43,624 nucleotides of DNA, from positions 1-43,624 of the forward strand of contig CADCHO010000025.1 of the NCBI GenBank assembly GCA_902801255.1, written 5' to 3'. The translations under genes were made by a program, and so were the position numbers. Under the pieces are notes generated by a model. It did not search any database and was not told where the DNA came from. It saw only the letters and a list, made by a program, of their open reading frames with translations. Shown here one piece after another: positions 15,359 through 26,769 of the stretch. Source of the stretch: an uncultured Eubacteriales bacterium (GTDB taxonomy: Bacteria; Bacillota; Clostridia; Peptostreptococcales; Anaerovoracaceae). Within the stretch, counting starts at the first letter, position 1; each line of letters starts with the position of its first letter.

Positions 15359-16618
15359 TTAATCCTCATCTTCCGGTTTATCCCTGACCGCGATGCGTGT
15401 CATTAATGCGCGCCTTGCATCGGCCTTGGTTACCTTGACGTGGAATAATTTATGTCTCGATTCATAGTCGAACTCATCGCCCACCTTAGGCAGCCTGTCA
15501 AGTTCGATCATCACCCATCCGTTGATGGTTGTGGCGTCAGCCTCGATCTCCTCATCGAACATCTCAAAAAAGTCCTCGAGATTTGCTCCGCCCGCAACCA
15601 TATAGACGCCATCGCCTGCCGGTCTTACATCTCTCGATGTTACAGTGTCGTGCTCATCGTAAATGTCACCGACGATCTCTTCGATGATATCCTCAAGTGT
15701 GACCAGTCCGGTCGTGCCGCCGTACTCATCTACGACTATTGCAATGTGAGTCCTCTTAGCCTGCATCTTTTTGAGCAGAACAGCCGCCTTGAGGGTCTCA
15801 GCCACATAAGCTACCGGCTTGATGATCTTCTCGGTGTCCTTTATTGTCTTTACATTATTGTTATAAAGGTCTTTCTGGTTGATGACGCCGATGATGTTAT
15901 CGAGGTCATCCTCATACACCGGCAGCCTCGAAAGGCCGGACTCCTTGAAGACCTTTTTGATATCTGCGACAGGTGTGCCTCTTTCGACCGCAACAATATC
16001 GACCCTCGGTGTGAGGATGTCGATGGCTTCTATGTCGTTGAACTCTATTGCATTAGCGATGAGCTCGCTCTGCTCTTCTCCTATGGCTCCGCCGGCCTCA
16101 GCCTCCTCGACTATGGTCAGCAGTTCATCCTCGCTGAATTCAGGTCCATCCTTCTTGCCAAAGGCCTTTTTGAGAAAGATTTTCAGTCCGTTGAAGATGA
16201 ATGTCAGCGGAGTCAGTACGAATATGAGCGCCCTGACAAAAGGCGTCAGGAAGAGAGCTACCTCTTCCGCATACTCTCTGGCGAGGATCTTAGGAGAGAT
16301 CTCGCCGAACACGAGTACGAGGAATGTGACCATGACAGTGGCGATGGTCGGGCCTATCTTTCCGCCCCATGTCATGATGCCGTACACTGTAGCGACAGAT
16401 GTCATGGTAATGTTGGATATGGTATTTCCGACCAGCACTGCTGTGATCAGCCTGTCGAAGTCCTCACAGAGCTCAAGTGCGTAAGCTGCGCGCTTGTTGT
16501 CATCAGCCGCGAGATTCTTCAGTTTGATCTTGTTCGCTGAGCTGAACGCTGTCTCGGTAGCCGAGAAAAACGTTGAGCTTAGCGTAAGAAGTATTATTGC
16601 TATAAGATATCCGTTCAT
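15359..16618 (-). CDS. CNNM/CorC-HlyC family membrane protein with CBS pair
   Basis: A 419-residue protein of the hemolysin-C/CNNM family linked to magnesium or cobalt homeostasis. The first ~150 residues hold the CNNM membrane domain (LSSTFFSATETAFSSAN, then LVGNTISNITMTS). Two CBS domains span ~200-320, recognisable from TPRVDIVAVERGTPV and VVDEYGGTTGLVTLEDIIEEI. The C-terminal CorC/HlyC transporter-associated domain begins near 340 (DGVYMVAGGANLEDF). Its ATG shares one base with the stop of the giant repeat gene (TAATG), so it is probably translated by ribosomes finishing that gene. Confidence 0.92.
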   Translation of the reverse strand: MNGYLIAIILLTLSSTFFSATETAFSSANKIKLKNLAADDNKRAAYALELCEDFDRLITAVLVGNTISNITMTSVATVYGIMTWGGKIGPTIATVMVTFLVLVFGEISPKILAREYAEEVALFLTPFVRALIFVLTPLTFIFNGLKIFLKKAFGKKDGPEFSEDELLTIVEEAEAGGAIGEEQSELIANAIEFNDIEAIDILTPRVDIVAVERGTPVADIKKVFKESGLSRLPVYEDDLDNIIGVINQKDLYNNNVKTIKDTEKIIKPVAYVAETLKAAVLLKKMQAKRTHIAIVVDEYGGTTGLVTLEDIIEEIVGDIYDEHDTVTSRDVRPAGDGVYMVAGGANLEDFFEMFDEEIEADATTINGWVMIELDRLPKVGDEFDYESRHKLFHVKVTKADARRALMTRIAVRDKPEDED

Positions 16619-19600
16619 TATTCCTTTCCGGTGATCTCCCAGTCGATGGTTGTATCGATTTCAGGAGTCTCGTAGTTTTCATTATCGTATGTCAGATACG
16701 CCTTGGCAGTGTATCTGCCCGGAGCAACAGCCCTGTTGTCTCTGTATCTGACGGCGATCTGCCAAGGAACTCCCTTCAGAGTGATGTGCTTCTCAGTACC
16801 ATCATATTCGAACGGTTCGTCGTAATCCCAGTGTACTGCAGAAGTATCATATTTAGCTCTGTGTATCCTCCACTTAAGGTCAGGTATCTCTACGGCCTCG
16901 CAGTTGCGTGTATCATAGATGAGCCTTGCTCTTGCAGTGTATGTACCGGCGTTTATCTTGCTGTTGTCAGTGTATACGACCTCGATATCTTCAGGTACTC
17001 CTACGAGCTTCACTTCTTTCGCCTTGTCGTCATAGACGAAGACTGTTTCATCATCGTAGTCCCACTTGATCTCCGAGAGATCGAGAGGCTTCTTGGCGAT
17101 CCTCCACCTGAGTTCAGGTACGGACGGAGCTTCAAAGTTCTCTTTATGTTTGTATCTGAGCTTCGCCTCAGCGGTATATCCGCCTGCATCGACGCCCTTG
17201 TTGCCTACATATGCTTCTACTCTGACGCCTTCAGGCAGACCAAGCAGTCTGACGCTCTTTTCCTTGCCGTTGTATACGAACTCATCCTCGTAATCCCAGT
17301 GGACTTCGGACATGTCATAGCACGCCTTGTCTATATGCCACCAGCATCCGCTTACAGGTGCAGGAGTTTCGAAGTTGACCGGATCCTTTGCCTCTACAAC
17401 AGCCATGGCTTCATACTCACCGGAGTTCACGGCTCTGTTGTTGGTGTAGGTCACCTTTACCGTGTCAGGAAGTCCTTCAAGTTCAACGCACTTCTCTTCG
17501 TTGTCGAACGTGAATGGTCCTTCGTAGTTCCAGTGTACTCCGCTCATGTCGATAGGAGCTTTCAGTATCTCCCATTTGAACGGAGGAAGCTCGCGCTCCG
17601 TATAGTTGCCCGGTTCTCTGTTCACCAGTTTTGCGGTTGTGTAGTAAACACCGGCATCGGTAGCTGTCTCACCTGAGTAGACTACATCGAATCCCTCCGG
17701 GATGCCCGCCAGGTATGGCTTTGCCTCTACTCCGCGCAGCTTCTCAAAGAAGCCGAGCTGACGCGTCTTTGTAGCTATGCATACGCTCTTAGGTGTGCCG
17801 TCGTACATATACGGACCGTCGTAGACCCATTCCACTGCATCAGTGTTCACGTCGACAGCAGCAGGAGCGATGCTCCAGTTGCAGCCTCCGAACGTCGGCT
17901 GCTCGTAGTTTTCCGCATCGTATTTCAGCTCTACCGAAGCCTCGTACGAGCCGGCATCAGTAGCTGTATTGCCCGAATATACCGGGGTGATGCCTTCAGG
18001 GAGTCCTGTGAGCTCAACGGCCTTTGGATTTCCGTCAAATACGAATCCGGTGACGCCCTGCCATGCAGTTCTTGACATGTCGTACGAAGCTTTGCTTATG
18101 CTCCATTCGCATCCGCCCATTTCAGGTGTGTGATAGTTGTCAGCATCATACTCCAGATCCACCGAAGCACTGTAATTGCCTACATTGACTCCGGTATTTC
18201 CATGGTATACAGGCGTGACTCCCTCAGGGAGACCCGCGATGTATACGGACTTTTCGCTTCCGTCATATACGGATTTGAACTCGCCTTCCCATCTTGCTCC
18301 GGACATGTCATAAGCAGCCTTTACTATGCGCCACTCGCAGTCTCTTATAGATGCTCCGTTATAATTATTCGGATCCTTCGGCATGAGCTCTGCATGTGCA
18401 GTGTAAAGTCCTGCGCCTGCTGCAGTATTACCTGTGTATTCAACGCTGAGAGTCTCCGGAACTCCCTCGAGTTTTACTGTTCTGACCTCACCGTTGTAAA
18501 CAAATGCACGTGAGTAATCCCATCTCAGTCTGCGGATATCCGGATCTGCCTTTTCGATCGCCCACTCACAGCTCATTTCTTCAGGGACATTGAAATCCGA
18601 AGTATCGATGCCGAATCTTGCTATAGCCCTGTAGCTGCCTGCGTTTACGGCCGTATTGCCTTCATAGCTGACGCTGACTCCTTCAGGGATGCCTGTCAGT
18701 TGGATCCTCTTAGGCGTACCGTCAAACACGTAGTTTCCGTCATAATCCCATGCAGCTTTGCTCATATCGTAGTCGGCCTTGTCTATGCACCAGTCGATAC
18801 TTATCGGATCCGGAGCACTGAAGTTGCTGTCGGATGTAGCAAAGCTTGCTGTGGCAACGTAATTGCCTGCTCTGTCAGCACTGTTCTCATTGTACGATGC
18901 CGTCACATTCTCAGGCAGTCCATTCAGCTCAACAGTCTTTCTGCTGCCGTCGTAGGTGAAGCATCCCGGTTCATAATCCCAACTGACTGCAGACATGTCA
19001 TAATCAGCCTTAGCGATCTCCCAGTCACAGTCTGCCACCGATGGTGCATTGTAGTTTGCAGGATCAGAAACAGTGAGTATCGCTTTTGCAGTGTAGCTTC
19101 CTGCTTCCTTACCCTCATTGCCTGTATAGTCGGCTTTGATGCCGTTCGGGAGATGCTCGAGCATGACGCTCTGATCTCTTCCGTTGAACACCTTAGGTCT
19201 GTTGTAGTCCCATCTGACAGCCGACATGTCGTAATCGGCTTTCACGATCTGCCACTTGCAGCTCTCGATGACCGGCTGGCTGTAATTGTACGAGTCATAT
19301 GGTATAAGCTCCGCGGCTGCCTCGTATGAGCCTGTATCAGCCGCTGCATTGCCGGAGTAAACCACTCTTATTCCATCAGGAAGTCCTCTGAGTGATACTT
19401 CATGCATTCTTCCGTTATATTTGAACTCGCCTTCATAATCCCAGGAAGCTCCAGACATATCGTATTCGGCTTTCCTGATCTCCCACTCGAGTTCCATAGG
19501 ATCAGGAGTGTTGAAGTTGCGGCTGTCCGCAGCCGTGAATGAAACGCTTGCCTTGTATGAGCCGGCATCACGGGCCGTGTTGCCTCTGTATGAAGGAAGT

Positions 19601-22600
19601 ACGCCCTCAGGCAGTCCCTTCAGTACAACTCTGAACTCACTGCCATCATATGTGAACGGCTTTTCATAATCCCAGCGGACATGGCTCATGTCGTAATTGC
19701 CCTTATCTATCCTCCATGTGAGGTTCTCGAGCCTGGACTTTGTGAGATTGTCCGTATCTTCAGGAATGATCTCTGCAGCAGCTACATATGTACCTGCCTG
19801 ATTTGCTCTTGCGTTGCTGTATTTGACCGATGTGCCTTCCGGAATGTTTCTTGCGGCGACCGTCTTATCAGTACCGTCATATACAAAGGCTTCATCGTAA
19901 TCCCAGTTTACTGCCGATATGTCTACCGGAGCCCTCTCTATTACCCAGTGGCATGTAGCCACTTCAGGTTTTCTGTAGTTTCTCTCATCGTATTCAAATC
20001 CGGCTCTTGCAGTGTATTCACCTGCTTCCGAGGCTGAGCTGCCTTCGTACTGAGGTATGAGTCCGTCAGGCAGTCCTGTCAGCCTGACGCTCTTTGTTTC
20101 GCCGTCATACGAGAAGTCCCTGTTCTCCTGCCACCTGACTCCGCTCATATCGAACGACGCCTTATCTATGCGCCAGTCGAGCATCATGTCCGGGATATTG
20201 TCTTCGTAATTATCGGCGTCCATTACTTTGAACTTCGCCGTCGAAGTATACGCGCCTGCGTCTGTAGCTGTTGCGTTGAAGTATTCAGCAAATACTCCCT
20301 CAGGCAGTCCGGCAACTTTTACAGTCTTAGGGCTTCCGTCATAGATGAACGGCTCGCTGTAATCCCAGTACGCTCCGCTCATATCAAAGTGCGCCTTGTT
20401 TATGCTCCAGGAATAGCCCTGTGGAGCAGGTGCACTGAAGTTGTCATCGTCTGCAGGTGAGAACACGGCTTTTGCGAAGTATCTGCCCGCACCGACTGCG
20501 GTGTTGCCTGTATAGTCAACTCTGACTGCATCACCGAGGTCGTTGATTATACCGACAGTCTTCTCGCTTCCGTCGTAAACAAATGCAGATGAATCAGTCC
20601 ATGAAAGCTGAGGCAGTTTATATTCTGCCTTATCGATCGACCATGAGCAGCCGTTTATCTCAGGAACTTCGTAATTGTTTGCATCTGTCGGCATGAGCAC
20701 TGCGCTCGCGGCATACATGCCTGCTTCAGTGCTTGTGTTGCCGCTGTACTCTACTTCGACGCCCTCAGGAACATTGATAAGATATATGCTGTGCTCATTC
20801 CCGTCATATTCGAACGGCTCGGAGTAATCCCAGCGTACATCGGAAATGTCGATCCTGCTTTTCAGGATCCTCCAGCTGCAGTCTGCAGGGGATGCGACTT
20901 CAAGGTTATCTCCGTCAAATCTGAGATTTGCATGCGCGTTATAAATGCCTGCATCATATGCTGAAGCATTCTCGTATTCGGCATAAACGCCCTCAGGCAG
21001 ACCTTCGAGCTCTACCTTCTTGACCTCTCCGTCATAGGTGAAAGCTCTGTCATAATTCCATCTGACGCCGGACATGTCGATGCTCTTCTTGCCTATCCTC
21101 CAGTCAACGGTCATGTCGTCAGGCGTATTGTAGTTATGTGTGTCCGGATTTACGAAAGATGCGCGTGCTGTATACTCGCCGGCTCTTCTTCCTTCATATC
21201 CGCTGTATCTGACTGTAAGCTCCTCCGGGTACGACACCAGCTTAACGCCGTGTGTTTCTCCGTCGTATTCGAAGTCAGTCTCTTCGCACCAGGCAGTACC
21301 TGACATATCGTAGGAAGCCTTAGCGATCTCCCATTCGTATTCCGCAGGACCCATGAAGCAGTAGTTGCCGTTTATGGAAGCTCTTGCGAGGTATTTGCCG
21401 GCCTGAGTCTCCTCTGCCCCATCGTATTCGACCTCGGCATCCTCAGGAAGATTCATGATGAATACTTTTTTAGGGGATCCGTCATATACGAAATCTTCGC
21501 AGCCTGACCACTCAAGATCAGCAGCGTTGAGTCCTACTTTCTTTATTTCCCAGACGCATGGAGCCACATCCTGCGGCTTCTCGTAATTTGCGCTGTCGTA
21601 ATCGAATCTGGCTTTTGCAGTGTAGACTCCTGCATTAAGCGCTGAATTGTCCTCATAATTTGCAGTGACGCCTTCAGGAAGCCCCTTGAGCCATACGCCG
21701 TGGTTCGATCCATCATATGCGAACGGGCCGTCATAGACCCAGCTCACCTGCGACATGTCGTAGGTGCCTCTGCGGATGGTCCACTCGTGTTCACGTACTA
21801 TCAGCGGCTCATTGAAATTGTCCTGATCGAAATCGAAGTCGATCGTCGAAATGTATGTACCTGCTTCAAGGCCTTCATTTCCTGTATATTTTGGCACTAC
21901 GCCTTCAGGCAGCCCTTCGAGCCACACATGCTTGACGCTGCCGTCATAAGTCATGTCGTCATCTTCCGCCCAGCGTACGCCGGATACGTCGATATTCGCT
22001 CTTCTGATATTCAGTCTTACGGTGTTGGAGACCGCTTCCCCTACACTGTTTGCGGCATGGAGTCTCAGAAGATATCCGTTGCATGATACAGGCAGGATGG
22101 CATTGTGGTTGATCGCACGCCATGTCCCTTCTTCACCCGTCTCACTTATCTCAAGGTAGCCGGTAACCTCGCGGTCATTGACCGAAATGATCTCCGGCAG
22201 TTCGAACGGAATGGTCTCTCCGAATGAGAAAGCTGCCGGCTCGGCGATTTCTCCGATCTTCGGTGCATGTCCCCATATTGCGTAAATATCCAGATCCCTG
22301 TCGACCGAGTTTATCTCAACTCCGGCCGGGATAGCTGCGCCGCTTCCGTCAGGCTGTGAATTCCACATCATGAACTTCCAGCTTTCATCAGGTCTGCTGA
22401 ACATAAGAGCCTCGACACGGTATGCAGAGCCGGGTACTGTTTGTCTTTCTTCGACAAGTTCTTCCGCCTCTCCGTCGAAATTACTGTGGTAAAGCACTCT
22501 GAATCCCTCTACTGCGATCGGCTTTGCCTTCTTATACTTGCCGTATTCTTTCACAGCAAGCCTTCCGCAGTCCGTACTGCCGTCACCGTTTGCGCTGAAA

Positions 22601-23004
22601 CCGGCACCAAGGAGTATTTCATCGAGCTTTGCACACTGAGCAAACATTCTGTTCATATCAGTGCAGCGGCTGGTATCGAAAGATGAGATGTCAAGTTCGC
22701 TGAGATTTGCGCATCCCTCGAACATCGAGTCCATGCGTGTGACATTTGACGTGTCAAATCCGCTCAGGTCTGCCTTTACCATCTTTCTGCAGCCTTTGAA
22801 CAGTCCCGCAAGCGATGCCCCATAAGGGAAGCTCACACCGTTTGTTGCGACCACTGTTCTGATAACGTCCTCGAAGCCCTTCCATGGTGCTCCTTCGTCG
22901 CCAAGATCTGCAGCCATTCCATTGTCGATAAGAAGATTTCCGTTCTCGTCGATTCCCCAGAGACACTCGCCCCATTTTTCTACTTTTTTAAAGTTGCCTG
23001 CCAT
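16618..23004 (-). CDS. giant 2128-residue protein: BspA-like LRR + InlB-like + Ig-like regions + 23 tandem repeats
   Basis: The start at 23004 has AGAGG nine bases upstream; an in-frame stop lies six codons before it, so no signal peptide is being missed. Residues ~65-150 are BspA/DUF285-type repeats (LSGFDTSNVTRMDSMFEGC, then a second unit). Residues ~165-245 resemble an InlB B-type repeat ending DIYAIW. Residues ~250-335 look like an Ig-like strand domain. From ~336 to the end run 23 tandem ~77-residue units built on the pattern DMSxVxWDY..FxYDG..K.V.L.GLPEGV...Y.GN.A..AG.Y.A.A, ending WxIxK, like MBG/YDG-type domains. No sortase motif, membrane helix or lipobox is present. Such repeats are normally extracellular, so the missing export signal is odd. 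Confidence 0.85.
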   Translation of the reverse strand: MAGNFKKVEKWGECLWGIDENGNLLIDNGMAADLGDEGAPWKGFEDVIRTVVATNGVSFPYGASLAGLFKGCRKMVKADLSGFDTSNVTRMDSMFEGCANLSELDISSFDTSRCTDMNRMFAQCAKLDEILLGAGFSANGDGSTDCGRLAVKEYGKYKKAKPIAVEGFRVLYHSNFDGEAEELVEERQTVPGSAYRVEALMFSRPDESWKFMMWNSQPDGSGAAIPAGVEINSVDRDLDIYAIWGHAPKIGEIAEPAAFSFGETIPFELPEIISVNDREVTGYLEISETGEEGTWRAINHNAILPVSCNGYLLRLHAANSVGEAVSNTVRLNIRRANIDVSGVRWAEDDDMTYDGSVKHVWLEGLPEGVVPKYTGNEGLEAGTYISTIDFDFDQDNFNEPLIVREHEWTIRRGTYDMSQVSWVYDGPFAYDGSNHGVWLKGLPEGVTANYEDNSALNAGVYTAKARFDYDSANYEKPQDVAPCVWEIKKVGLNAADLEWSGCEDFVYDGSPKKVFIMNLPEDAEVEYDGAEETQAGKYLARASINGNYCFMGPAEYEWEIAKASYDMSGTAWCEETDFEYDGETHGVKLVSYPEELTVRYSGYEGRRAGEYTARASFVNPDTHNYNTPDDMTVDWRIGKKSIDMSGVRWNYDRAFTYDGEVKKVELEGLPEGVYAEYENASAYDAGIYNAHANLRFDGDNLEVASPADCSWRILKSRIDISDVRWDYSEPFEYDGNEHSIYLINVPEGVEVEYSGNTSTEAGMYAASAVLMPTDANNYEVPEINGCSWSIDKAEYKLPQLSWTDSSAFVYDGSEKTVGIINDLGDAVRVDYTGNTAVGAGRYFAKAVFSPADDDNFSAPAPQGYSWSINKAHFDMSGAYWDYSEPFIYDGSPKTVKVAGLPEGVFAEYFNATATDAGAYTSTAKFKVMDADNYEDNIPDMMLDWRIDKASFDMSGVRWQENRDFSYDGETKSVRLTGLPDGLIPQYEGSSASEAGEYTARAGFEYDERNYRKPEVATCHWVIERAPVDISAVNWDYDEAFVYDGTDKTVAARNIPEGTSVKYSNARANQAGTYVAAAEIIPEDTDNLTKSRLENLTWRIDKGNYDMSHVRWDYEKPFTYDGSEFRVVLKGLPEGVLPSYRGNTARDAGSYKASVSFTAADSRNFNTPDPMELEWEIRKAEYDMSGASWDYEGEFKYNGRMHEVSLRGLPDGIRVVYSGNAAADTGSYEAAAELIPYDSYNYSQPVIESCKWQIVKADYDMSAVRWDYNRPKVFNGRDQSVMLEHLPNGIKADYTGNEGKEAGSYTAKAILTVSDPANYNAPSVADCDWEIAKADYDMSAVSWDYEPGCFTYDGSRKTVELNGLPENVTASYNENSADRAGNYVATASFATSDSNFSAPDPISIDWCIDKADYDMSKAAWDYDGNYVFDGTPKRIQLTGIPEGVSVSYEGNTAVNAGSYRAIARFGIDTSDFNVPEEMSCEWAIEKADPDIRRLRWDYSRAFVYNGEVRTVKLEGVPETLSVEYTGNTAAGAGLYTAHAELMPKDPNNYNGASIRDCEWRIVKAAYDMSGARWEGEFKSVYDGSEKSVYIAGLPEGVTPVYHGNTGVNVGNYSASVDLEYDADNYHTPEMGGCEWSISKASYDMSRTAWQGVTGFVFDGNPKAVELTGLPEGITPVYSGNTATDAGSYEASVELKYDAENYEQPTFGGCNWSIAPAAVDVNTDAVEWVYDGPYMYDGTPKSVCIATKTRQLGFFEKLRGVEAKPYLAGIPEGFDVVYSGETATDAGVYYTTAKLVNREPGNYTERELPPFKWEILKAPIDMSGVHWNYEGPFTFDNEEKCVELEGLPDTVKVTYTNNRAVNSGEYEAMAVVEAKDPVNFETPAPVSGCWWHIDKACYDMSEVHWDYEDEFVYNGKEKSVRLLGLPEGVRVEAYVGNKGVDAGGYTAEAKLRYKHKENFEAPSVPELRWRIAKKPLDLSEIKWDYDDETVFVYDDKAKEVKLVGVPEDIEVVYTDNSKINAGTYTARARLIYDTRNCEAVEIPDLKWRIHRAKYDTSAVHWDYDEPFEYDGTEKHITLKGVPWQIAVRYRDNRAVAPGRYTAKAYLTYDNENYETPEIDTTIDWEITGKE
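16621..21999 (-). repeat. 23 tandem ~231-bp coding repeats (divergent)
   Basis: Each unit encodes about 76-78 residues with invariant landmarks: an opening DMS/DIS, VxWDY, a YDG or YNG turn, GLPEGV, the GN..A..AG.Y segment and a closing WxI followed by Lys or Arg. Unit 3 is the most divergent. Unit 19 carries an insertion of about 20 residues (ATKTRQLGFFEKLRG) between strands. Divergence between neighbours is high, which argues for an old array under protein-level selection rather than a recent expansion. Confidence 0.85.
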
Positions 23005-23183: not shown

Positions 23184-23888
23184 CTATCGGGTAGCTTTGA
23201 GAAGTGCTTCGAACATTTCATCCGCCGGATCAATAATCAGCAGATCAGTCAGTTTTTCGATTTCTTCCTTGATATACGGGAAGTGAGTGCAGCCAAGCAA
23301 AAGAGCTTCAGCTCCGCACGCCTCAAAGTATCTCAGAAGATCACCAATGCCGCATTTATCGACTATTTCTCCCGGGGACAGATCGTCCTCTATCGCACGG
23401 ACTATCGCCATATTGCCGGTCCCTATCATATAAATGTCGGGGTTCGCAGCCATCAGCGCTTCCTCTATCGCGTGAGCCGAGAGATTATTCGCGGCCATGA
23501 CTCCGATGCGGTCATATGCGCTGCCAAGTTTCCTGTATACCTGCAGCGGAGTATAGATCCTTATGTCTTTGCCGGAGTCAATGGATTTTCTCACGGCATA
23601 ACTGTCGAAGTCGAACGCTCCCGAGAGCGAATTGCAGTAGATGAAGAAGTCACTGACTCCATCCTGTATTACCTGATCAAATATGTTATCCATTATCGCA
23701 CGCTTCTCATCGTCGTCCGAATACTGGAATTTCACCTGATCGTCGCAGTCAAGCGCTGCCGGGCAATACAAAGGCATGAAGCCGGGCTCAAAGCCGGCTT
23801 CATGCGTCTTTCTTTCAATGTATTCGACACCCATCTGTGTGTCTACGGGAGTTCCCGCTATGACTGCTATTTTGATACTGTCGCTCAT
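23184..23888 (-). CDS. aspartate/glutamate racemase family protein
   Basis: A cofactor-independent racemase of the Asp/Glu family, 234 residues. The two catalytic cysteines of the family are in IYCNSLSG near residue 85 and LLGCTHFPY near 199. The N-terminal IAVIAGTPVDTQMG replaces the usual D-S-G-x-G of glutamate racemase MurI, so the substrate is not clear. It begins 12 nt after metQ with GGAAGG before its ATG, and is the last gene of the methionine transporter operon. That context suggests a role with an imported amino acid, perhaps a D-enantiomer, but this is inference. Housekeeping D-glutamate supply is the alternative. Confidence 0.82.
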   Translation of the reverse strand: MSDSIKIAVIAGTPVDTQMGVEYIERKTHEAGFEPGFMPLYCPAALDCDDQVKFQYSDDDEKRAIMDNIFDQVIQDGVSDFFIYCNSLSGAFDFDSYAVRKSIDSGKDIRIYTPLQVYRKLGSAYDRIGVMAANNLSAHAIEEALMAANPDIYMIGTGNMAIVRAIEDDLSPGEIVDKCGIGDLLRYFEACGAEALLLGCTHFPYIKEEIEKLTDLLIIDPADEMFEALLKATR

Positions 23889-23900
23889 ATGCCTTCCGCT

Positions 23901-24725
23901 TTAGAACTTAGGCTGGATCAGTCCGTTGTAGTTATCAAGGATGAAGTTCTTAACTGTATCTGACTGAACCGCCTTAACGAGAGCCTGAGTCTTCTCACTG
24001 TTCTCATTGCCGGCATTTACTACGATGACGTTTACAAATGTTTCAGCAGCATCAGAGTCTGCAGTTTCAAGTGCAACAGCATCGTCCTGTGTGAATCCGG
24101 CGCCATTTGCGTAGTTATAGTTGATTACTCCGAGAGCAAGGTCAGGAAGTGATGCCGGTATTGTAGCAGCTTCGAGCGGAACGATCTCGAGGTTCTTTGG
24201 ATTCTCAACGATATCCTGCTCTGTTGCTGTAACGCCTGCATCTTCCTTCAGCTTGAGAACGCCGTTAGCTTCGAGGAGCTGGAGAGCTCTTGCTCCGTTT
24301 GTTCCGTCGTTAGGGATACCGATCTTGTCACCGTCCTCGAGTGCATCGAAGGAGTCCTTTGTTCCCTTGTAAACGCCCATCGCCTCATAGTGTACGTTTC
24401 CTACAGCAACGAGGTCTGTGCCGTTCTGCTCATTGTACTCATCAAGGTAAGGTACATGCTGGAAATAGTTGGCGTCTACATCGCCGTCTGTAGTAGCTAC
24501 GTTAGGCTGTACATAATCATCGAACTCGATGACTTCGAGTGTCCATCCTTCGGCTGCAAGTTCGTCGGAAATCGCATTGAGGATCTCTGCGTGTGGTGTA
24601 GGTGAAGCTGCTACTTTGATTGTCTTGTCTGCGGAATCACCGCTACCGCCGCCACATGCTGTGAGGATGCCGAGCGCGAGTACGAGTACTGCTGCTAAAA
24701 TGCTGAATCTCTTTACGTTCTTCAT
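23901..24725 (-). CDS. metQ: methionine ABC transporter substrate-binding lipoprotein MetQ
   Basis: This is the solute-binding protein of the D/L-methionine uptake system. The start at 24725 has AAGGAG seven bases ahead; an in-frame extension to 24791 has no such site. The 274-residue precursor has a lipoprotein signal ending LALGILTAC, so the mature protein is anchored at Cys24. The NLPA-family body is clear: VAASPTPHAEIL, the YFQHVPYLDEYN segment and IGIPNDGTNGARAL. It lies 76 nt after metI, in the usual metN-metI-metQ order. Confidence 0.95.
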   Translation of the reverse strand: MKNVKRFSILAAVLVLALGILTACGGGSGDSADKTIKVAASPTPHAEILNAISDELAAEGWTLEVIEFDDYVQPNVATTDGDVDANYFQHVPYLDEYNEQNGTDLVAVGNVHYEAMGVYKGTKDSFDALEDGDKIGIPNDGTNGARALQLLEANGVLKLKEDAGVTATEQDIVENPKNLEIVPLEAATIPASLPDLALGVINYNYANGAGFTQDDAVALETADSDAAETFVNVIVVNAGNENSEKTQALVKAVQSDTVKNFILDNYNGLIQPKF

Positions 24726-24801
24726 GTCTTTTCTCCTTTTCTTCTGATTTGTTATCTTAGTTAAATTGTTACCTTTATTATCAACCCTCACGGGGTCTTA
24801 A

Positions 24802-25464
24802 CTAATTGATGCGGTTGTCCATCTTCGCAGCCAGCCTTATGCCGATCTCCTGCATTATCTGAACCAGGACAACCAGTACGATGATCGTTATCCACATAAC
24901 ATCAGGCTGGAACCTGTAGTGTCCGAATCTGATAGCGATATCTCCGAGTCCGCCGCCGCCGAGAGTTCCGGCCATTGCCGAATAACCCAGTATGGTGATC
25001 GTTGCTACAGCAGCTCCGTTCAGAAGCGACGGTCTTGCTTCCAGTAGCATCACCTTGCGGATGATCTGCATATTGCTGGCTCCCATCGCCTGCGCCGCCT
25101 CGATGACTCCCGGATCGACTTCCAGAAGCGACTGCTCTACCATTCTTGCTACAAACGGCCATGCCGCCAGGATCAGCGCCGCTGTGGTCGCCCATGTTCC
25201 GATACCGGTACCGATTATCTTTCTGATGTATGGCATGAACGCTATCATCAGTATCAGGAAAGGCATGGATCTTATCACATTTACGATGAATCCCATGATC
25301 TTGTTGTAAACTGCGGCAGGCTTTATCCCGTTCGGGCCGGTAACTATGAGCGATACTCCTACCGGAAGCCCTATTATGTACGAGACCAGAGTTCCCACCA
25401 GAGTCATGGTCAGCGTCTGTACTGTTCCTTCAGAGAGAAGTTTAAACAATGTTCCTGTATCCAT
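24802..25464 (-). CDS. metI: methionine ABC transporter permease MetI
   Basis: The 220-residue membrane component of the methionine importer has five hydrophobic helices, starting near residue 15 (TLTMTLVGTLVSYIIGLPVG). The cytoplasmic coupling loop is EAAQAMGASNMQIIRKVML, then LEARP, the classic EAA motif that contacts MetN. Its ATG shares a base with the metN stop (TAATG), so the two are co-translated. Confidence 0.96.
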   Translation of the reverse strand: MDTGTLFKLLSEGTVQTLTMTLVGTLVSYIIGLPVGVSLIVTGPNGIKPAAVYNKIMGFIVNVIRSMPFLILMIAFMPYIRKIIGTGIGTWATTAALILAAWPFVARMVEQSLLEVDPGVIEAAQAMGASNMQIIRKVMLLEARPSLLNGAAVATITILGYSAMAGTLGGGGLGDIAIRFGHYRFQPDVMWITIIVLVVLVQIMQEIGIRLAAKMDNRIN

Positions 25465-26534
25465 TATTTCTCTTCCTCCTCTCTGAAACCGTGAAGAGGA
25501 TAATCATAGTAGTTCGAATCCTCTTCTATTTCCGTAAACGCAACACCCTCTTTTATGAGGTATGCTTTCTGCTTTTCCGCCGCTTCCTTGTTGTCTGACA
25601 AGGCTATTACCATCTGCCCTCTCTGCTCATCAAGAAGGGCATCCATATTTGCATACAGGAGATTTACCGGCTCTCCGGTCGCAAGGATCATGTTTGAAAT
25701 GATTGGTTTGTATGCCGTCTTCTCATCAAACACAAGTCTCAGCCTGTTGCGGACTGCGGTCCTTGCCTCAGGAAGCTCACTGTCCTCGCTGTCCGGGAAG
25801 AACAACTTCCTTGCGGCTTTAGTCTTAGGCCTTGCAAAGACATCCTGTACATCACCTCGCTCAACGATCCTGCCGCCTTCTATGACTGCGACCTTGTTGC
25901 AGAGCTGTTTGATAACTCCCATTTCATGGGTTATGACAACGAGTGTGATGCCGCGTTCTTCATTGATCTTGCGGAGCAGGCTCAGGATCGACCTTGTGGT
26001 CTTAGGATCGAGAGCTGATGTAGCCTCATCGCAGAGTATTACTTCCGGATCTGACGCCAGAGCTCTTGCTATGGCGACTCTTTGTTTCTGGCCTCCGGAG
26101 AGCTGTGACGGATACGAGTGTGCCCTTTCTTCGAGATCTACTACCTTAAGCAGTTCTTCGGCCTTCTTAACAGCTTCCTGCTTTGGCACTCCTGCGAGCT
26201 CAAGAGGAAAAAGTATGTTGCCCAGCGCGTCTCTCTGCATCAGCAGGTTGAACTGCTGGAATATCATCGATATTTTACGTCTGTGGCGGTTGAGATCTCT
26301 GCTTCCCAATCCGGTCAGCGCGCTGTCGTTGAAAATGACTTTACCTTCAGTCGGCTGCTCGAGGAGGTTGATCGTTCTGACCAGTGTTGATTTGCCTGCG
26401 CCGGAAAGACCTATTATTCCGTACGAGTCTCCTCTCTCGATGTCCAGATTGATATCCTTCAGTGCGACGACCTTGCCGCCTTTGGTATCAAACTCCTTGG
26501 TTACTCCCTGGAGTCTTATGATGTGTTCTGCCAT
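25464..26534 (-). CDS. metN: methionine ABC transporter ATP-binding protein MetN
   Basis: The energy-coupling ATPase of the methionine importer, 356 residues. It shows Walker A GLSGAGKST near residue 43, the Q-loop FQQFNLL, the signature LSGGQKQR near 143, Walker B VILCDEATSALDP and the H-loop VVITHEMG. The C-terminal ~80 residues form the NIL domain that binds methionine and shuts the transporter at high internal methionine. The start is at 26534 with AAAGGA in front. It is preceded by a 200-nt leader holding a Met-rich peptide and a terminator, so both transcription and activity are likely to respond to methionine. Confidence 0.96.
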   Translation of the reverse strand: MAEHIIRLQGVTKEFDTKGGKVVALKDINLDIERGDSYGIIGLSGAGKSTLVRTINLLEQPTEGKVIFNDSALTGLGSRDLNRHRRKISMIFQQFNLLMQRDALGNILFPLELAGVPKQEAVKKAEELLKVVDLEERAHSYPSQLSGGQKQRVAIARALASDPEVILCDEATSALDPKTTRSILSLLRKINEERGITLVVITHEMGVIKQLCNKVAVIEGGRIVERGDVQDVFARPKTKAARKLFFPDSEDSELPEARTAVRNRLRLVFDEKTAYKPIISNMILATGEPVNLLYANMDALLDEQRGQMVIALSDNKEAAEKQKAYLIKEGVAFTEIEEDSNYYDYPLHGFREEEEK

Positions 26535-26545
26535 TCCGTTCCTTT

Positions 26546-26585
26546 CCTGAAAAATAATATGGGGCAGGTCTTAACGACCTGCCCC
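26546..26585 (-). terminator. leader terminator (attenuator) upstream of metN
   Basis: GGGGCAGGTC (26585-26576) and GACCTGCCCC (26570-26561) make a perfect 10-bp stem with loop GTTAA. On the minus strand it is followed by ATATTATTTTT. It lies only 12 nt before the metN ribosome-site region and inside the transcript that starts at the promoter at 26741-26769, so it must be read through for metN to be expressed. Confidence 0.9.
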
Positions 26586-26635
26586 GGCATCTCACACATG
26601 AGAAATATACACAGTTTCTGGATTCGTTATGACCT
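26566..26635 (-). promoter_or_regulatory. candidate antiterminator competing with the metN leader terminator
   Basis: AGGTCATAACG (26635-26625) can pair with CGTTAAGACCT (26576-26566): 10 of 11 pairs, one A-A mismatch. The second segment contains the terminator loop and the loop-proximal half of its 3' arm, so the two folds exclude each other. The first segment starts 9 nt after the leader-peptide stop codon, where a ribosome resting at the stop would cover it. This is the arrangement expected of amino-acid attenuators. It is derived from base complementarity only. Confidence 0.65.
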
Positions 26636-26644
26636 TATCCTATG

Positions 26645-26710
26645 CTATTCATCGGCTCTGCACATGCACATGCCCATCATTCCCATTTCCATCATCATGT
26701 TTCTTGTCAT
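26645..26710 (-). CDS. Met/Cys-rich leader peptide of the metNIQ operon (21 residues)
   Basis: ATG at 26710-26708 follows AAAGGAG by nine bases and the frame closes with TAG at 26647-26645. Of 21 residues nine are Met (positions 1, 5, 6, 7, 9, 11, 12, 14, 16) and two are Cys (15, 17). Codons 5-7 are three Met codons in a row. The peptide begins MTRNMMMEMG and ends CRADE. It sits about 25 nt into the transcript and is followed by mutually exclusive terminator and antiterminator folds, then metN. The function inferred is to stall ribosomes when Met-tRNA is scarce and so allow transcription into metNIQ. A metal-binding micropeptide is a less likely alternative. Confidence 0.8.
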   Translation of the reverse strand: MTRNMMMEMGMMGMCMCRADE

Positions 26711-26734
26711 GTGAATGTGCTCCTTTCATGTTCA

Positions 26735-26751
26735 GTTGCTAATATAGCAAC
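26735..26751 (-). promoter_or_regulatory. 17-bp palindrome overlapping the metN -10 box
   Basis: GTTGCTA-TAT-TAGCAAC is a perfect inverted repeat with 7-bp arms centred on the -10 region and reaching to the expected transcription start. A dimeric repressor bound here would block RNA polymerase. No regulator gene is visible nearby. Confidence 0.5.
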
Positions 26752-26769
26752 GTTTGCTTGTGTTGTCAA
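26741..26769 (-). promoter_or_regulatory. promoter of the metNIQ operon
   Basis: The minus strand has consensus -35 TTGACA (complement of 26764-26769), a 17-bp spacer and -10 TATATT (complement of 26741-26746). Transcription should start near 26734, giving a leader of about 200 nt before metN. Confidence 0.8.

Follow-up and report, generated by a model that had tools for sequence, protein, structure and literature searches.

The closest described counterparts of the leader reported here are two methionine leader ORFs from other phyla. In Campylobacter jejuni, the 20-aa MetL with its 3 Met codons precedes metBA, and attenuation has been proposed for it (PMC3847290). That paper describes MetL as confined to C. 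jejuni, C. coli and C. doylei, and its translation-initiation signal is treated in PMC11955535. Like the clostridial leaders, MetL is a short ORF with Met codons ahead of methionine genes, and its RNA is described as ending just past the stop codon; unlike them, it belongs to another phylum, has other target genes and has 3 Met codons. In Streptomyces lividans, the ORF metL precedes metNIQ, and PMC8079986 reports no typical Rho-independent terminator. As described there, this ORF has Met-Cys pairs and a position before metNIQ in common with the clostridial leaders, but it is leaderless, has few Met codons and is without a typical Rho-independent terminator. The peptides of C. jejuni and S. lividans are too short, and too different, for common descent to be judged. 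A paper on a Xanthomonas met 5' UTR was also considered and set aside as not being a leader-peptide case.

Other known systems share one feature or another with the locus. PMC3766115 gives the attenuators then in Rfam as His, Leu, Thr and Trp, with Ile/Val and Phe known outside Rfam. Bacillota do have classical leader-peptide attenuators, as PMC2965389 and PMC9413887 (the latter with five Eubacteriales species) describe, but these respond to histidine, not methionine. Mycobacterial cys operons have leader ORFs with Cys codons (PMC1262725; PMC8764745 as cited in PMC9094748), and conserved terminator hairpins were not found in mycobacteria according to PMC1262725. Such leaders likewise read a sulfur amino acid through their codons, but they read only cysteine and belong to another phylum. 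In Clostridioides difficile, SAM-I controls metN-metL-metQ, metY-metA and metK (PMC11477304); the operons are equivalent to those studied here, but SAM is sensed by an aptamer.

More generally, the methionine genes of Clostridia are textbook cases of control by SAM riboswitches and T-boxes. The initial annotation of this locus knew of no described methionine leader-peptide attenuator in Bacillota. This stands for the Clostridia within the PMC literature, where we found none described (subscription journals lie mostly outside it, and an earlier description is possible). Beyond them, methionine leader peptides are already in print for C. jejuni metBA and S. lividans metNIQ.

A Met/Cys-rich leader ahead of metNIQ

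The window analyzed in this work is a whole stretch of 43,624 nt from an uncultured Eubacteriales bacterium of the family Anaerovoracaceae (assembly GCA_902801255.1, contig CADCHO010000025.1). We consider it highly probable that its metNIQ leader represents ribosome-mediated transcription attenuation that senses charged tRNA-Met at clostridial methionine genes; charged tRNA-Cys is perhaps sensed too. The ORF, its Shine-Dalgarno sequence, the terminator, the alternative pairing, the conservation and the gene context are read from sequence, and the folding switch comes from a model.

The elements of the leader all lie on the minus strand. A sigma-70-type promoter, TTGACA-17-TATATT (26741..26769), has 11 of 12 consensus matches and a TG ahead of the -10. 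The Shine-Dalgarno sequence AAAGGAG (26720..26726), read directly, serves the leader peptide ORF MTRNMMMEMGMMGMCMCRADE (26645..26710), whose 21 codons include 9 Met and 2 Cys, with Met at codons 5-7, and which ends in the stop codon TAG (26645..26647). The putative antiterminator segment AGGTCATAACG (26625..26635), hereafter region 2, begins 9 nt past this stop codon and pairs at 10 of its 11 positions with CGTTAAGACCT, which spans the terminator loop and 3' arm. The intrinsic terminator itself (26561..26585) has a stem of 10 bp, 8 of them G-C, and the loop GTTAA; it is also seen in the fold and lies 26 nt from metN. Terminator-like sites are expected by chance 0.2 times in the 501-base stretch that holds it. 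Rereading the sequence thus confirmed the promoter, the Met- and Cys-rich ORF, the terminator and the 10/11 pairing given in the initial annotation; the U-run it described is present as the tail ATATTATTTT (26551..26560), but this run is imperfect.

The concentration of Met codons is unusual. When the window's leader (224 nt) was dinucleotide-shuffled 2000 times, no version reached 8 Met per 16 residues (maximum 7), and the densest Met stretch of the 43.6-kb window, in any frame, is the leader ORF. The Rfam 15 scan of the window leader gave no family at gathering score, and neither the SAM-I riboswitch (RF00162) nor the T-box (RF00230) had a match in the window.

The leader precedes three genes of a methionine ABC transporter, all on the minus strand and named with Pfam and NCBIfam, their top NCBIfam scores lying under the curated cut-offs: metN, the ATPase with a NIL domain (25464..26534; TIGR02314, 333 bits against a curated cut-off of 499.7), metI, the permease (24802..25464; NF008049, 197.4 bits, cut-off 212), and metQ, the substrate-binding lipoprotein (23901..24791; PF03180, 255.6 bits). 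A fourth gene after metQ (window 23184-23888) encodes an Asp/Glu racemase-like protein that weakly resembles glutamate and cysteate racemases, and window positions 16618-23004 encode a 2128-aa protein with a DUF285 stretch.

The proposed mechanism starts from a leader ORF that would be translated during its transcription. If charged tRNA-Met (perhaps also tRNA-Cys) is plentiful, the ribosome would reach the stop codon and cover, or just pass, region 2, which occupies either the last part of the ORF or the RNA immediately behind it, and the terminator would form before metN. With methionine short, the ribosome would stall among the Met and Cys codons, which in the scored leaders means 5 to 28 codons before the stop, and region 2 would stay free to catch part of the emerging terminator, such that the polymerase would continue into the methionine genes. 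A shortage of methionine should slow the leader's own initiation as well, which counts against the mechanism and raises the question of how a methionine-starved ribosome, itself needing methionine to start, serves as a sensor.

In the window's leader, the region from the Shine-Dalgarno sequence to the start, GCACATTCACATG (window 26660-26720), can pair with the MCMC codons. This pairing beats at least 192 of 200 shuffles in six leaders of the window's genus; in L038, L048 and L145 it does not go beyond shuffles. An untranslated leader may in this way hide its own start.

Conservation and spread of the leaders

Searching 197 genomes of the window's family for MetQ led to 40 regions (L031-L070). 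Three were excluded for contig ends (L032, L057, L069) and one for having no metN upstream of metQ (L070), and the 36 usable loci have a MetN match, weak in L053 (26% identity), and enough upstream sequence. At 21 of these loci metN is preceded by an ORF rich in Met and Cys that has a Shine-Dalgarno-like sequence, the weakest being that of L065; the other 15 have no such ORF before metN, which counts against the attenuator. Leaders of the window's genus share the core MMMxMGMMGMCMC almost unchanged, and the flanking codons on both sides vary. Outside the genus the Met/Cys run persists in altered order, as in MMEMNMMGMCM, MMMMGMCMAMMSMC, MMNMCMGMCMC and MCMYMCGIM. The conservation on which the initial annotation depended is therefore present, with the Met/Cys core kept and the adjacent codons variable, in the genus and beyond.

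Cysteine is a regular component of these cores. Among 28 leaders hand-picked as representatives, and counted without a background rate, it accounts for 56 of the 220 non-Met residues of the cores, and Met is followed by Cys 53 times; the Cys codons are TGC in 58 cases and TGT in 15. This composition suggests that the leaders may read cysteine supply as well. The M-C pairs are strikingly constant, as they might be if a Met/Cys-rich nascent peptide, bound to methionine, SAM or cysteine, arrested the ribosome in place of hungry codons. However, subgroups differ widely in how many Met and Cys residues they have and in how these are ordered and spaced (MMMEMGMMGMCMC, MMMMGMCMAMMSMC, MCMYMCGIM), which does not resemble a fixed arrest motif, and stalling by excess methionine or SAM would turn the genes on when they are unneeded. 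We regard arrest by the nascent peptide as very unlikely.

The spread of the leaders was followed with a sequence-only model built from 18 leader ORFs. At E<=1e-8 it matched 68 places in 66 of 349 family genomes, a count that includes the source genomes of the model sequences. A looser tally, 301 of 349 genomes at E<=0.1, was set aside, as was the simple pattern ATGATGNNNATG, which has 98 matches in the window's own genome and gives no discrimination. Chance matches to the model occur at E<1e-6, one of them inside a CobW-like gene in the genome of the window, so the gene context must be checked for each match. At E<=1e-5 the class-wide search matched 8 of 391 genomes: that of the window, two with leaders judged real ahead of homocysteine synthase (L153 and L155, outside the window's family) and five with matches judged to be chance (L151, L152, L154, L156, L157). 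A second match in the window's genome (L158) was also judged to be chance.

Named genome records, for which at least 300 nt upstream of metN were required, have a Met/Cys-rich leader at 24 of 75 loci. Four are less certain, namely L240 (Lachnospiraceae), L249 (Herbinix), L258 (Christensenella) and L259; the other 20 come from records labelled Mogibacterium, Clostridiales, Clostridia, Bacillota, Peptostreptococcaceae, Oscillospiraceae, Ruminococcaceae or plain bacterium.

Alternative pairing and modelled ribosome positions

Terminators accompany the leaders almost throughout. A script finds one behind 39 of 40 leaders, a count that has no chance control, and the window's terminator was found separately. 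Among 41 further leaders a hairpin is found in 40; the one without, L119, belongs to the window's genus and is without the terminator 3' arm.

RNA lying downstream of the last Met codon and ahead of the terminator pairs with the terminator beyond shuffles, with a mean z of -1.6 over 40 leaders; in the window this antiterminator is weak (duplex z -1.27). Pairing is also better with a leader's own terminator than with terminators taken from other subgroups (Fisher 6e-4, Stouffer 2.5e-5; 48 leaders in 18 subgroups). GGTC[A/G]TAACG is found in 25 of 28 distinct complete rows of the window's genus; L034 has a changed form of it, and L108 and L109 have lost it by deletion. In the strongly pairing permuted-metQ, metF and homocysteine-synthase leaders examined, region 2 is the ORF tail itself, and it changes together with the terminator: CAAATG/CATTTG, CCAATG/CATTGG, TCCGA/TCGGA and AGTCAGA/TCTGACT. 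For ten leaders, hand-picked because the ORF-tail design had been seen in them, the pairing with the own partner has a mean of -17.5 kcal/mol vs -10.4 kcal/mol for swapped partners (permutation p 2e-5), and the own partner is the best in 7 of 10. Covariation supports the predicted pairing between region 2 and the terminator.

We then modelled nascent folding thermodynamically, with 60% of the terminator 3' arm transcribed and the RNA behind the front edge of the ribosome omitted. Over 48 leaders, the mean probability of the terminator is 0.18 with the ribosome at the last Met codon vs 0.76 with the ribosome at the stop codon. The antiterminator is higher by more than 0.1 in the stalled state in 41 of the 48, and lower in one, L033, which runs opposite to the model. 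Shuffled regions were used as the control for the stalled state because the stop state has less RNA available; they give a terminator probability of 0.60 (Fisher p about 1e-7 over 18 subgroups, 60 shuffles each). Eight of the 48 leaders have no support against shuffles, at least 13 of 60 of which match them (L037, L038, L041, L043, L050, L061, L133, L155). With the complete hairpin the difference shrinks to means of 0.75 (stalled) vs 0.96 (stop), and the switch must therefore mostly be kinetic.

Leaders outside this set behave similarly in the model. For 18 further named leaders, unused before, the terminator has a probability of 0.06 when stalled, 0.85 at the stop codon and 0.64 in shuffles. 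Every one of the 18 has a lower value in the stalled state, and for 13 of them no more than 3 of 60 shuffles fall that low. Of 23 additional leaders of the genus, the 21 that could be scored give 0.25 when stalled, 0.83 at the stop and 0.89 in shuffles; stalling lowers the terminator in 17, and for 16 no more than 3 of 60 shuffles fall that low. L111 and L114 have no modelled switch, and L116 has a low terminator in both states.

In the window the model gives 0.06 stalled, 0.91 at the stop and 0.88 in shuffles, of which 1 in 60 is equally low. The idea, already in the initial annotation, that a ribosome at the stop codon favours termination and a stalled one relieves it is hence reproduced by the modelled folding for the window, for the mean of the 48 leaders and for the 18 new ones. 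For the window the switch appears at 60% of the 3' arm, but the complete terminator wins in every modelled ribosome state. Together with the weak antiterminator, this means that the switch must be kinetic.

Folding in the absence of a ribosome bears on another explanation, in which scarce initiator fMet-tRNA would leave the leader untranslated and region 2 free, and the polymerase would read through. The terminator is below 0.3 without a ribosome in 20 of 48 leaders, the window included at 0.18, and the pairing of the Shine-Dalgarno and start region with the MCMC codons in the window's genus would also fit a sensor of initiation. Yet in the other 28 the untranslated RNA is at 0.3 or above, and in group B (L042, L048, L049, L135, L143) it terminates, at 0.87 to 0.97; a long Met run would moreover be unnecessary. 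We hold sensing by initiation to be very unlikely. In the model, group B looks like classical protection of region 2.

Target operons and other regulators

Within the fetched stretch, a methionine gene is present at 47 of 50 loci found with the ORF model, and the remaining three (L127, L137, L139) end at contig ends. The 50 loci overlap and are not all independent, and 20 were hand-chosen from strong matches. Beyond the metNIQ context known to the initial annotation, leaders of the same kind also precede other methionine genes. They head operons of metNIQ, metQ-metN-metI, homocysteine synthase (L133, L153, L155) and homocysteine synthase with metA (L142), and at L138 one stands before metF and then metH. 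That the ORF is a real small protein, such as a Met/Cys metal-binding peptide with MxMxMC patterns like copper-binding motifs (general knowledge), placed by chance ahead of methionine genes, is extremely improbable given this gene context, on which the copper reading was dropped, the terminators behind nearly all leaders examined, the pairing of the ORF tail with the terminator in several subgroups and the unconserved N- and C-terminal parts.

Seven family loci (L136, L144-L148, L150) have a circularly permuted MetQ, with the gene order metQ-metN-metI where the sequence suffices. The part similar to window MetQ residues ~156-292 comes before the part similar to ~54-152, with a signal peptide of its own ahead. 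The permutation was recognized from swapped tblastn/blastp pieces and, in L145, also from two Pfam NlpA stretches.

The known regulators are found elsewhere in these genomes. The window's genome has two SAM-I riboswitches, one before metK and one (L160) before the gene of a 138-aa protein of unknown function, and none before metN. It also has one sub-threshold T-box, ahead of thrS. SAM-I is present in 46 of 60 family genomes. The initial annotation had allowed that a different ligand-binding fold might occupy the leader; the Rfam search gave none in the window leader and, across the 40 family loci (L031-L070), four tRNAs only, with no riboswitch or T-box. At 14 named loci without a leader, a T-box lies just upstream of metN in one, Acetanaerobacterium elongatum (L257), SAM-I precedes metN in none, and no known riboswitch was found before metN at the other 13.

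Attenuation by a ribosome reading the Met codons would add methionine specificity, possibly cysteine specificity, and several target operons to leader-peptide attenuation in Clostridia. We propose only tentatively, at slightly less than an even chance, that the leaders form a widespread clostridial class that reads Met and Cys codons, controls uptake and late synthesis (homocysteine synthase, MetA, MetF, MetH) and replaces the SAM-I and T-box elements of relatives, with SAM-I kept for metK and with independent leaderless versions in Coriobacteriia. With such attenuation, sensing would be split within one cell, methionine being read by the ribosome for uptake and synthesis and SAM by the riboswitch for metK. 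Leaders of this kind are carried by many clostridia of the gut and rumen, a group for whose methionine genes SAM riboswitches or T-boxes had been expected, and the set matches no Rfam 15 family where scanned.

A few further arrangements upstream of metN were observed. L045 and L046, of one genus, have ~90 nt that are nearly identical, with no Rfam match and no Met leader. L141 (the same place as L115) and L184 have a tandem pair of Met-rich ORFs ahead of a single metN, the second of which (MMMELRMMDMCMCAPK) resembles a decayed copy of the first. In Coriobacteriia, short ORFs with Met and Cys codons lie just upstream of metN in L226 (Slackia piriformis), L235 and L199 (Enteroscipio rubneri), and have a similar KPG...A[DE]AQA tail; these ORFs fold into a strong hairpin. 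Those of L226 and L199 are possibly leaderless, with the putative start codon directly behind a -10-like element.
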